A DNA stretch of 64,000 nucleotides from a virus. This document shows, in pieces, positions 17,246-61,894 of the stretch. A model generated the notes under the pieces. It ran no database searches, was not told the DNA's origin, and saw only the letters and a program-made list of their open reading frames with translations. Each line of letters opens with the position of its first letter. The stretch's first letter is position 1. The position numbers and the translations under genes were made by a program. Location: positions 1 to 64,000 of the IMG/VR virus record IMGVR_UViG_3300027797_000016; one strand, written 5' to 3'.

Positions 17246-17401
17246 TCAAACAGCAACAGGAGTTTGTGCGGTATCATAAGCATCCAGTGCTTCTACAAGA
17301 TCAGCACCAGTTTCTGCATTAACGATGCTTACAACAAGTTGAGAACCAGCAGAATTAGTATCGGCAAGGTCAGTAGCAAGAGCAAGCAGTTGAGTAGACA
17401 T
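17246..17401 (-). CDS. 51-residue protein ending in PVAV
   Basis: Start at 17401 (MSTQLLALATDLADTNSAGS); the longer ORF to 17452 would enter tRNA-Glu. Hydrophobic-alternating N-terminal half and the C-terminus AYDTAQTPVAV. The last four residues equal the end of the phage tmRNA tag encoded 290 nt upstream. Lies inside the tRNA cluster. Function unknown. Confidence 0.65.
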   Translation of the reverse strand: MSTQLLALATDLADTNSAGSQLVVSIVNAETGADLVEALDAYDTAQTPVAV

Positions 17402-17443
17402 AATAAAGAAGATAATTGAATAATTTGGGAATAAAGTTCCCAA

Positions 17444-17515
17444 TAGTCCCAATGGGATTCGAACCCATATGCCCAGAATGAAAATCTGGTATCCTAACCC
17501 TTAGATGATGGGACC
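17444..17515 (-). tRNA. tRNA-Glu(TTC)
   Basis: 72 nt. Acceptor GGTCCCA / TGGGACT (one G-U), anticodon stem CCAGA/TCTGG with loop TTTTCAT (TTC), T arm ATGGG TTCGAAT CCCAT. Confidence 0.9.
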
Positions 17516-17518
17516 ATA

Positions 17519-17590
17519 CGACTCTAACGAGATTTGAACTCGTGATAATACCGTGACAGGGTATCGTGATGACCGCTTCACTATAGAGTC
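17519..17590 (-). tRNA. tRNA-Asp(GTC)
   Basis: 72 nt. Acceptor GACTCTA / TAGAGTC, anticodon stem ATACC/GGTAT with loop CTGTCAC (GTC), T arm ACGAG TTCAAAT CTCGT, discriminator G. Three nt separate it from tRNA-Glu. Confidence 0.9.
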
Positions 17591-17599
17591 AATGGATGA

Positions 17600-17798
17600 A
17601 AAAAGGGATACTCATACAAGCACCCCTTTCATATAAGTTTTGGATGAGAAGGAAACTTATAGAACCCCCTTCACTCATTTAGAGTCAAACTGCAACAGGT
17701 GCGGAATGACGAGTGAAATTGACAATGTTGTTGCCTTTTGTTTGTTTGTTCCGTCAACAGATAAGAACTTTATGCTTTATCGAAACCAGTGCATCCCC
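17600..17798 (-). ncRNA. ssrA: tmRNA, 5' coding piece (permuted, two-piece)
   Basis: Begins GGGGATGCACTGGTTTCGA at 17798, the hallmark tmRNA 5' end. GGGGATG pairs with CATCTCC of the acceptor piece at 17962-17968; TAAAGCAT pairs with ATGTTTTA there. A pseudoknot-like element (GTTC..GAAC with TGTT..AACA) precedes the tag frame, which encodes NNIVNFTRHSAPVAV (17685-17732). After the stop, TCTCATCC (17642-17649) pairs with GGATGAGA (18003-18010) of the acceptor piece. Its 3' end, about 17600-17640, is estimated; a GGGG..CCCTTTTTT stem there may be the last helix or a terminator. tmRNA rescues stalled ribosomes and tags nascent chains for proteolysis. Confidence 0.88.
17685..17732 (-). other. tmRNA tag reading frame
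   Basis: AAC AAC ATT ... GTT TGA encodes NNIVNFTRHSAPVAV-stop; with the alanine carried by tmRNA the tag is (A)NNIVNFTRHSAPVAV. From memory, alpha-cyanobacterial tags begin ANNIV.F and end APVAA; this one ends AV instead of AA. No start codon is present, as expected for a tag frame. Confidence 0.88.
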
Positions 17799-17802
17799 GT
17801 GG

Positions 17803-17874
17803 CGAAGGGTTAGAGACTTGAACTCTAATCTTTGGTTTTGGAGACCAAGGTGCTACCAATTGCACCAACCCAAC
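17803..17874 (-). tRNA. tRNA-Trp(CCA) inside the tmRNA spacer
   Basis: 72 nt. Anticodon stem TTGGT/ACCAA with loop CTCCAAA (CCA), D arm GTGC..GCAC, T arm TAGAG TTCAAGT CTCTA. Acceptor GTTGGGT versus ACCCTTC leaves two T-T mismatches at positions 2 and 3, so it may be impaired. Unlike its neighbours it has an encoded CCA (17800-17802), followed after one base by the tmRNA 5' end. Confidence 0.75.
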
Positions 17875-17960
17875 GTAATGCTATGTGATTGTGAATCCAA
17901 ATTAAGTTAGACAAAAAAGATGCCCCACTGCAATCTTTTTCTTAACTTAAACCATAGCGA

Positions 17961-18030
17961 TGGAGATGTGGAGAATCGAACTCCAGTCTAAAACATCAGT
18001 AATCTCATCCTCTTGAACTTTTATATTTAG
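17961..18030 (-). ncRNA. ssrA: tmRNA, 3' acceptor piece (permuted)
   Basis: Minus strand: GGATGAGA, ATGTTTTA, T arm TGGAG TTCGATT CTCCA, then CATCTCC and discriminator A at 17961; CCA is not encoded. It lies upstream of the coding piece, the order used by circularly permuted tmRNA genes of alpha-cyanobacteria. The two helices formed with the coding piece are correctly nested. The 5' end is unsure: an 8-bp hairpin AGTAATAT..ATATTACT (18029-18050) may belong to it or to the leader. Confidence 0.85.
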
Positions 18031-18105
18031 TAATATGTGTTTATATTACTAGGAGACTATAAGGGCAACTACCATTCCCATTAGCAATAGAAATCAAACA
18101 CACAG

Positions 18106-18194
18106 CAGAAGTGGTTGGATTCGAACCAACGGATGCCCTAAAGAACATCAAAGGATTAGCAATCCTCCGCATTAGACCTCTCTGCCACACTTCT
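18106..18194 (-). tRNA. tRNA-Ser(GCT)
   Basis: 89 nt with the long variable arm expected of serine tRNA. Acceptor AGAAGTG / CACTTCT, anticodon stem GAGGA/TCCTT with loop TTGCTAA (GCT), T arm GTTGG TTCGAAT CCAAC, discriminator G. First RNA of the cluster. Confidence 0.9.
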
Positions 18195-58413: not shown

Positions 58414-59742
58414 TTATCTTGTTAATGCTTGGAGTTGTTGATTGGGAAGTCTTTTTGGGTAGTATTTTAAGTATTTGCAATGACAATTAATTCTAGAATT
58501 GCTGGCTATTTCGGTGAGACCTATAATTAACATACTAACATTAATTTTATCTGGAACTACACCTAAATTATCAGTACCCATCAAAATACCATTTCTGGCA
58601 GCAGCAAAATTATTCTCTTTAAATGCAAAGGAAACTTTTGATCCTGTTGCTGCCAACCCAAAATCAATTCCAACTTGATCGTTATATGCACCTCCAGGTC
58701 GAACTCCATTTCTTACAAGAAAATATCCCCCACCAAATCTGGTAGTTATAAAATATTGAATTGTATAAAATGAATCTCCAACTGCAGTACCTGCAACACC
58801 AAATCCTGGATATCCTTCTGGTGCATTGACATTAAACGGGAAATCAGTATGTTCCAATAAAATAGTTCCTTCAGTTCCATTATACCAACTAAAATTATTT
58901 TGTGTTATTATTGCAGTATCTTTATCTCGGGTTCTTGTTGATCCTATTGTGGGTATGTAGGAGGTTGGGAATGCTCCTGCTTCCAGTTGAGCACCCCAGA
59001 TGTAGATACCTGATGTTCCGTCTCCAGTATATTGTGTTGTAGAACCATTATATATTATAATGGATGGGTTATTGGTTGTATTTACTGTACCCTTTGTTGC
59101 AGTTAAAATGCATCTATACCATCCGTTTGGATATGCTATTGTTGTTGCTGATATTGCAGTATAATCTGCACTTGTAAGACCAGTAGATACAATTGCACCA
59201 TTAGATAAATTAAAAATTACTTGTGCAGCGGCATTTAAAAAATTAGAAAGAGATAATGAAACATAACCTCTTTCTGCTGCTTTTGCAAATACACTCAAAG
59301 TTACAGTTTCATTACTTGCAGTTCTTCCAACATAAGCAAAATGTTCTACATTAGATGCAGTATTTTCTACTAATTTCTCTGCACTATTAGTTCCATCAGG
59401 TGCAGTCGTTGCTGATGTATTTGTTGTAATACCTATATTTGATTTAGTCCAAGCAGCATTATCAAACTGCTCACTATAAGTCAACAAATTAGTCCTACTC
59501 TCCTCCACCAACAAACCCAAACTCTCACCAGTCACCGGGTTGTGGTCAAAACGTGCCTCATTGACTCCGGATAACTTAATCAACCCATCAGCACCCGTAT
59601 AAGACCCACCAGATGCTCTTGTGAAGGTGATTCTTGAGTCTAGTGCCTTCACCCGTGCAAAGTTTAGATCCAGAGTTGGTCTAACCTCTGGATAGTCTAA
59701 ATCAGTTGTATCAGCAGAAAGCAGAAAGGTATCAATACTCAT
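58414..59742 (-). CDS. LamG-like tail fibre/adhesin, paralog A
   Basis: 442 residues. DLDYPEVRPTLDLNFARVK, then RITFTRASGGSYTGADGLIK and RFDHNPVTGESLGLLVEESR, a domain frequent in phage fibres, followed by a concanavalin/LamG-type beta sandwich. Ends with L-P-N-Q-Q-L-Q-A-L-T. Paralogs at 60563-61894 and 63543-64000. Expected to bind host surface sugars. Confidence 0.75.
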   Translation of the reverse strand: MSIDTFLLSADTTDLDYPEVRPTLDLNFARVKALDSRITFTRASGGSYTGADGLIKLSGVNEARFDHNPVTGESLGLLVEESRTNLLTYSEQFDNAAWTKSNIGITTNTSATTAPDGTNSAEKLVENTASNVEHFAYVGRTASNETVTLSVFAKAAERGYVSLSLSNFLNAAAQVIFNLSNGAIVSTGLTSADYTAISATTIAYPNGWYRCILTATKGTVNTTNNPSIIIYNGSTTQYTGDGTSGIYIWGAQLEAGAFPTSYIPTIGSTRTRDKDTAIITQNNFSWYNGTEGTILLEHTDFPFNVNAPEGYPGFGVAGTAVGDSFYTIQYFITTRFGGGYFLVRNGVRPGGAYNDQVGIDFGLAATGSKVSFAFKENNFAAARNGILMGTDNLGVVPDKINVSMLIIGLTEIASNSRINCHCKYLKYYPKRLPNQQLQALTR

Positions 59743-60562: not shown

Positions 60563-61894
60563 TTATGATGTGAGGGTTTGGAGTTGGGAGTTAGAAAGAC
60601 GGACTGGGTAGTATGAGAGTCTGGAGATGGTTCCATTTAGGTATCTATTAGTATCACTTTCACGACCAACAACTAATATATTAAATCCACTTTGACTTAT
60701 ATTACCTGTAGCATCCAAAGAAATATTTCCTCCATTTAAACATTGTGAGAAGTAATTTACATCCTCATAATTAAATATCGATTTACCATTTCCTGATGTA
60801 TAAGTATTTGATATAAATTCAACTGCATATGTAAAATCTGTTAAAAATGCAAAACTTCGCATGGTTGATATATACACTCCGGATTCTTGCCCTCCTATTC
60901 TTGAGGACATTCTACGACTAATATTAGAACTATCAAATATACTAACTAAATACATATCTAAAATACTACTTGGGTGAATTTTGTTATTAAAATTCACTAA
61001 GAAACTCCCCTCATCCTGTCTATACCAACTACTAAAGTTCTTACCAGTTATTGATGCATTATCTGCTGCTCGGGTTCTTGTTGATCCTACTGTGGGTATG
61101 TAGGAGGTTGGGAAGGATGCTTGTTCTATTTGGGCGCCCCAGACGTAGATGCCACTGGTGCCGTCTCCTGTGTAAACAGTATTTATACTCGTTGTATTTA
61201 AAGTTACATTAAAATTAACTGCAGTTCCACTACCTGCGGTTGAAGGAATTCCCGTTAAAATACATCTATACCACCCGTTTGGATATTGTTGAATATTTGT
61301 TGTAATTACCGATCCATTTCCTTCTGCTAAAGTACTAACTACACTTCCAGTATCACTATCAAACCAAGCAGATGCTCTATTTCCTGCTGCACCTGCTGCA
61401 ATTATTTGAAATCTTATTCTATATCTTTCTGCAGATTTTATGAAAATAGAAGCAGTATATGTTGCAGATGTTGATCCGGATACATCTAAATTTATAAAAT
61501 GATCTGTGCTTGGACTTGTATCTTCATATAGTTTTTCGCAATCATTAGTTCCATTTGGAGATAAAGTTGCTGCAACATTTGCTGATACAGAAGTCCGGAC
61601 TTTACTCCAAGCAGCATTATCAAACTGCTCACTATAAGTCAACAAATTAGTCCTACTCTCCTCCACCAACAAACCCAAACTCTCACCAGTCACCGGGTTG
61701 TGGTCAAAACGTGCTTCATTTACTCCAGATAACTTAATCAACCCATCAGCACCCACATAAGACCCACCACTAGATCTTGTAAAGGTAATACGGGGGTCTA
61801 GTGTTTTACTATTTGCAAAATCAAGGTCAAGTGTAGGTAGCACAATAGGGTAATCAAGTTCTGCACTGGTATTAAAAACTTGTTTGACTGACAT
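60563..61894 (-). CDS. LamG-like tail fibre/adhesin, paralog B
   Basis: 443 residues; same plan as 58414-59742. About 115 bp of the shared N-terminal part (near 61608-61722, like 59449-59563) is identical in DNA, whereas the receptor-side half differs. Late motif at 61911. Confidence 0.75.
   Translation of the reverse strand: MSVKQVFNTSAELDYPIVLPTLDLDFANSKTLDPRITFTRSSGGSYVGADGLIKLSGVNEARFDHNPVTGESLGLLVEESRTNLLTYSEQFDNAAWSKVRTSVSANVAATLSPNGTNDCEKLYEDTSPSTDHFINLDVSGSTSATYTASIFIKSAERYRIRFQIIAAGAAGNRASAWFDSDTGSVVSTLAEGNGSVITTNIQQYPNGWYRCILTGIPSTAGSGTAVNFNVTLNTTSINTVYTGDGTSGIYVWGAQIEQASFPTSYIPTVGSTRTRAADNASITGKNFSSWYRQDEGSFLVNFNNKIHPSSILDMYLVSIFDSSNISRRMSSRIGGQESGVYISTMRSFAFLTDFTYAVEFISNTYTSGNGKSIFNYEDVNYFSQCLNGGNISLDATGNISQSGFNILVVGRESDTNRYLNGTISRLSYYPVRLSNSQLQTLTS

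Follow-up and report, generated by a model that had tools for sequence, protein, structure and literature searches.

A cyanophage permuted two-piece tmRNA with a tRNA-Trp gene in its spacer

A tRNA cluster on the minus strand of a viral contig contains a tmRNA gene in two pieces with a complete tRNA gene lying between them, which raises the question of whether such a gene can work as a tmRNA and how two structured RNAs would be released from one nested transcript. The stretch of DNA analyzed here (the window) comprises bases 1-64000 of a 105,059-base IMG/VR virus record. To judge from its protein matches, the 105-kb contig is part of the genome of a T4-like cyanomyovirus, putatively of the Kyanoviridae; its structural proteins are closest to those of cyanomyoviruses, PHROG tail and baseplate families are matched by the products of its tail, baseplate and fibre genes, and one tail protein has its best matches in SynMITS9220M01 and S-SM2 (42.7-43.8% over 98-99%). 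Two neighbouring minus-strand proteins (58414-59742 and 60563-61894) each align along most of their length with phrog_5939 (tail protein) and are likely the products of duplicated tail genes. The cluster runs in the order tRNA-Ser(GCT) (18105..18194), tmRNA acceptor piece, tRNA-Trp, tmRNA coding piece, tRNA-Asp(GTC) and tRNA-Glu(TTC) (17443..17591), a small open frame (17246-17452) and tRNA-Ile, all features being on the minus strand where coordinates are given.

The two tmRNA pieces, their pairing and the tag

Rfam searches of this locus returned matches to RF01851 (cyano_tmRNA; 18034-17608, 93.5 bits, E 7e-24, gathering cut-off 70 bits) and to RF04321 (tmRNA_permuted; 18010-17685, 85.6 bits, E 6e-15, gathering cut-off 47 bits), both on the minus strand, above the cut-off over the full model, with the acceptor piece preceding the coding piece. 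These searches bear out the original prediction of a phage-borne permuted two-piece tmRNA of cyanobacterial type, and its strand, discriminator, acceptor strand and 5' end were all correctly placed. The tmRNA itself is missing from the ARAGORN calls for the window. The combined pattern of T arm, acceptor, second T loop and tmRNA 5' end has an expectation of 0 in 100 shuffles.

The acceptor piece (17961..18034), supported by the two Rfam matches and by covariation among 10 phage tmRNAs, has a conserved GTTCAAGAGGATG start at 18018, followed by the T arm and the acceptor 3' strand CATCTCC (17968-17962), and ends at the discriminator A17961 with no encoded CCA. The coding piece (17608..17798, within the RF01851 match of 17608-18034) has its 5' end at G17798 and carries, in order, GGGGATGCACTGGTTTCGA, a P2 strand, the tag frame, a probable pseudoknot and a terminal hairpin. 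The acceptor piece thus lies upstream, and a 7-bp acceptor stem, the T arm and P2 join the pieces. From its sequence, the segment 17633..17672 is probably an H-type pseudoknot downstream of the tag (GAAGG/CCTTC with ATAAGTTT/AAACTTAT), and a segment resembling it is present in two relatives, L125 and L133. The terminal hairpin AAAGGG..CCCTTT with its trailing T run (17599..17629) supplies the last helix of RF01851 and probably marks the end of the tmRNA transcript unit; similar hairpins with T runs are found in relatives.

Pairing between the pieces was assessed in an alignment of the window and nine phage relatives (n=10) with the spacer removed, covering the acceptor stem, the T stem, P2 (ATGTTTTA, 17989..17996, with TAAAGCAT, 17779-17772) and a distal helix (GGATGAG, 18010-18004, with CTTATCT, 17765-17759). 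Across the four helices 97.0% of cells hold standard pairs, against 80.8 in shuffles; 15 pairs have changed on both sides, giving 42 such cells against 12.9 in shuffles, and none of the three figures is reached in any of 500 shuffles. Sliding one side by 1-3 columns reduced pairing to 45-56%. P2 is paired in 92.4% of cells and the distal helix in 97.1%, each with four pairs changed on both sides; in P2 the paired changes are seen as UAAAGCAU/AUGUUUUA in the window and CGGGGUAU/AUGCUUCG in relatives. The predicted acceptor helix and the TAAAGCAT/ATGTTTTA helix are in agreement with this covariation. The proposed third helix, TCTCATCC/GGATGAGA, is not: GGATGAGA/TCTCATCC (the latter at 17649-17642) is perfect only in the window, the partner segment in relatives offers four or five of eight pairs or is absent, and GGATGAG/CTTATCT takes its place. 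The error arose because single-sequence minimum-energy folding of the whole precursor prefers GGATGAGA/TCTCATCC; TCTCATCC overlaps one strand of the probable downstream pseudoknot.

The tag frame (17685..17735) encodes GNNIVNFTRHSAPVAV followed by TGA, from the codons GGC AAC AAC ATT GTC AAT TTC ACT CGT CAT TCC GCA CCT GTT GCA GTT TGA, with GGC (Gly, 17735-17733) as the resume codon and the stop at 17687-17685. Comparison with 12 relatives supports this reading: their tags include ANNIVAFSRSNTTALV, ANNIVAFSRSTVAA, ANNVVKFRRTAVTSLVAAL, ANNIVVFSRIRQLATA, ANNIVAFSRTRELATA, ANNIVAFSRILTREFARTDELVTA, ANKIVAFSRTSVPSLV and A/VNNIVAFSRQTVSV, with starts conserved between window and relatives and variable ends. 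The predicted frame and its likeness to alpha-cyanobacterial tags held, and the alignment lengthened the tag by one residue. The last residue of many phage tmRNA tags is V or L (ALV, SLV, VSV, VAV and AAL, among L017, L126, L125, L153 and the window, 17735-17685), in place of a closing Ala-Ala. Cyanobacterial host tags have APVAA ends, and ClpXP has a preference for two alanines at the end, so that some phage tags are possibly poorer degrons, and those ending in V or L may be a weaker degradation signal. With pairing maintained across relatives and a tag frame in place, the phage permuted two-piece tmRNA is, on comparative sequence grounds, real and well supported.

A tRNA-Trp gene within the spacer

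The intervening sequence, or spacer, occupies 17799..17960 on the minus strand and is 162 nt long by count, one fewer than the 163 nt first given. Within it, five linker bases separate a 79-nt hairpin (17958-17880) from the tRNA-Trp, after which a single C (17799) remains. The long hairpin (17880..17958) is built from the helices GCTATG/CATAGC, TTAAGTTA/TAACTTAA and AAAAAGAT/ATCTTTTT; the folding energy of the spacer is -44.1 kcal/mol (z -2.95), and the fold of the full precursor contains the acceptor stem as well as the tRNA cloverleaf. Neither the fetched loci nor a set of 50,697 phage records yielded a homologue of this hairpin. It is possibly terminator-like or protective, and some transcripts could end at its U run.

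The tRNA-Trp (anticodon CCA; 17800..17874) was called by ARAGORN as tRNA-Trp(cca) and matches RF00005 at 54.5 bits, against a cut-off of 29. Its body spans 17874-17803 and its encoded 3' CCA 17802-17800, followed by C17799 and then by G17798 of the tmRNA, so that an intact tRNA with an encoded CCA lies wholly within the intervening sequence and ends one base before the tmRNA 5' end, exactly as predicted. It is single-copy in the contig, and its acceptor stem contains its only two non-standard pairs, U.U mismatches in tandem. The same acceptor, GTTGGGT/ACCCTTC, with encoded CCA is present in the tRNA-Trp of the phage locus L017. That tRNA-Trp is 98.7-98.8% identical to those of the cultured cyanophages S-PM2 and S-CREM1 and belongs to a long tRNA array, in which it precedes the L017 tmRNA by two genes. 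The tRNA-Trp genes of S-PM2, S-CREM1 and L017 thus share the U.U mismatches and encoded CCA with that of the window, but lie in ordinary arrays outside any tmRNA. Since these features are common to the S-PM2-type lineage they did not arise for the spacer; by this comparison they are old lineage features, the mismatches cannot be read as a mark of decay, and the encoded CCA is inherited rather than special to the spacer site. Most simply, the spacer would have received a neighbouring tRNA by insertion as the cluster was shuffled.

Among 32 distinct permuted viral tmRNAs compared, only that of the window has a tRNA in its spacer. The spacers of all other cyanobacterial-type phage tmRNAs in the fetched loci are 5-8 nt, against 162 nt here; in other phage types they reach 171 nt, without a tRNA.

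Proposed maturation of the nested precursor

We favor a working two-piece tmRNA in which the hairpin and tRNA-Trp were inserted into a short spacer and one precursor gives rise to both RNAs, and put the probability of this reading at roughly three in four. The sequence, the covarying fold, the tag frame and the intact tRNA are established from the DNA; we infer that both the tmRNA and the tRNA-Trp are transcribed, processed, charged and used. In a single transcript, the acceptor stem GGGGAUG/CAUCUCC would close a branched loop in which the tRNA-Trp cloverleaf stands beside the hairpin. Cuts by host RNase P would fall ahead of the tRNA-Trp at 17875/17874 and ahead of the coding piece at 17799/17798, and the latter cut would create both the 5' end of the coding piece and a tRNA-Trp carrying one surplus C at its 3' end. 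The acceptor piece would be finished after A17961 by 3' trimming and the host CCA-adding enzyme, as in cyanobacteria, and the two pieces would be held together through three helices. No SmpB gene was found in the 105-kb contig, so host SmpB is assumed; with it, alanine charging and EF-Tu, the tmRNA would free stalled ribosomes, tagging their products with GNNIVNFTRHSAPVAV, while the tRNA-Trp would be used in translation.

The 5' ends of tmRNAs are products of RNase P, and a cut at 17799/17798 would therefore leave a tRNA-Trp ending in CCAC, with one C to remove. The suggestion that tRNA 3' processing frees the tmRNA is for the same reason better reversed; it is possible, but less likely. Whether maturation is coupled in this way, with a single RNase P cut setting the tmRNA 5' end and the tRNA-Trp 3' end and hence a fixed proportion of the two RNAs, is to our minds evenly balanced. 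If it is, a ribosome-rescue RNA and a tRNA would come from one nested precursor in fixed proportion, and because one cut would set the ends of two RNAs the locus offers an easy way to examine how the precursors of two-piece tmRNAs are cleaved.

Two other accounts of the locus have to be weighed against a single working precursor. The pieces might come from separate transcripts, with termination at the spacer hairpin and the tRNA-Trp and coding piece made from another start as a split tmRNA. The hairpin, which contains AAAAAGAT..ATCTTTTTT, is terminator-like in shape, and the tRNA would lead the coding transcript; yet the hairpin is absent from the terminator scan list, promoter-like sites near the tmRNA gene are no more frequent than in shuffles, with none in the spacer, and the 5-8 nt spacers of all cyanobacterial-type relatives imply that one transcript is ancestral. 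We regard separate transcripts as improbable. The same holds for a decaying gene, a relic whose maturation was blocked by the tRNA insertion. Here the 162-nt spacer is joined by an RF01851 score of 93.5 that is below those of several relatives (up to 143), by TCGAT where TCGAC is usual and by the Gly resume codon. Against this, compensatory paired changes have maintained P2 and the distal helix, the tag frame and stop are intact, and other intact phage permuted tmRNAs have spacers of 120-171 nt. Misjoining of a tRNA-Trp fragment into the tmRNA during assembly of the cluster is very improbable indeed, for although the arrangement is known from one contig only and the collection searches may omit records very near the window, the acceptor and tRNA ends are complete at both junctions, the tRNA-Trp is single-copy in the contig and no second spacer copy that could cause such a join exists in the fetched contig pieces or loci.

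Relatives, precedents and other phage tmRNAs

Two-piece tmRNA has been seen on Northern blots in Prochlorococcus (PMC1242208), and the alpha-cyanobacterial tmRNAs of RF01851 share with the window the acceptor-then-coding order, the acceptor, P2 and T-arm pairings, a tag start of NNIV.F.R and the lack of an encoded CCA. The window differs in being phage-encoded, in its 162-nt spacer with a tRNA (about 5-13 nt in the family), in its Gly resume codon and in its VAV tag end. In phages, the permuted tmRNA of the methylophage Melnitz has been described, 53 two-piece tmRNAs, 50 of them aquatic, were predicted by ARAGORN, and a tree includes phage tmRNAs of the cyanobacterial lineage (PMC9004378). The tmRNAs of Melnitz and pelagiphages are phage-encoded and two-piece like that of the window, but are of alphaproteobacterial type with a glutamine riboswitch attached, and no spacer tRNA is reported for them (PMC9004378). 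Since phage permuted tmRNAs, cyanophage ones included, were already published (PMC9004378), that share of the novelty claimed for the locus falls; the part that stands is the tRNA in the spacer, for which no phage report was found in a literature search that had subscription papers mostly outside its reach.

A 2025 tmRNA database holds 97,179 curated sequences, among them 11,946 permuted ones and 79 of phage origin (PMC11915505). It contains the single precedent, GCA-2688965__sp002688965.2, in which an intact tRNA-Ala within the intervening sequence was called a unique feature (PMC11915505). Compared by its description, this case has an intact tRNA inside the intervening sequence as does the window, but the tRNA is tRNA-Ala and the source a nominally archaeal metagenome bin, as against tRNA-Trp in a phage (PMC11915505). 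If our reading is true, the window would hold the first tRNA gene known to be nested in a phage tmRNA and, in the literature found, the second in the tmRNA of any genome, and the spacer of a permuted tmRNA would be seen to tolerate insertion of another structured RNA.

Searches of other cyanophage genomes, as proposed in the original prediction, recovered the permuted tmRNA in several but the spacer tRNA in none. The tmRNAs of S-CAM1, S-CAM3, S-CRM01, S-SSM7, Sf-FS3, AG-345-P14 and L017 are of the same family, often lie beside tRNA genes and in most cases have the GTTCAAGAGG start and TGTTGACGG motif of the window; unlike it, they have spacers of 5-6 nt without a tRNA. Pattern scans of viral contigs gave 13 stretches with spacers of about 117-177 nt, none with a tRNA, and no match where a tRNA T loop was required at shorter spacing. 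No exact match to a tRNA inside a permuted spacer was found in 84,980 species genomes at two spacings, with patterns strict enough that this null is no proof of absence. Candidates were discarded on closer reading: three hits with a tRNA CCA adjoining a tmRNA 5' end are all standard tmRNAs by RF00023, two loci where the end of a Trp tRNA is close to the 5' end of a tmRNA (L073 and L199) read as standard-form tmRNAs without an embedded tRNA, and apparent spacer tRNAs in L017, L038 and L069 proved to be spurious pairings that drew in tRNAs lying upstream.

The comparison also brought other phage tmRNAs to light. Six cyanophage permuted tmRNAs that score above the Rfam cut-off have no tmRNA annotation in public records (HQ634177.1 108674-108942, KU686197.1 182658-182927, HQ615693.1 88334-88555, PV340856.1 20809-21098, GU071098.1 20984-21286 and MH319764.1 32489-32765), and some are overlain by a 'hypothetical protein'. 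A set of phage permuted tmRNAs has GGCAGTA in place of the T loop TTCGANT, a swap that occurs on two different T stems (L136 7230-7300 (+), L133 2684-2750 (+) and L125 (-), with the same type in L127, L129, L131, L132, L134, L135, L137 and L138). These have G18-like D-loop changes (TGG to AAG or TAG) and score above the cut-off with both RF01851 and RF04321; L136 is otherwise nearly equal to L130, whose T loop is normal, and the L133 type has no match in annotated phages. Finally, the phage permuted tmRNAs L144 2365-2552, L150 1301-1488 and L075 881-1037 have spacers of 118-149 nt in which a small open frame starts and appears to enter the coding piece, for example ATGGAACTTGTAAAATATAGAGAC in both L144 and L150.
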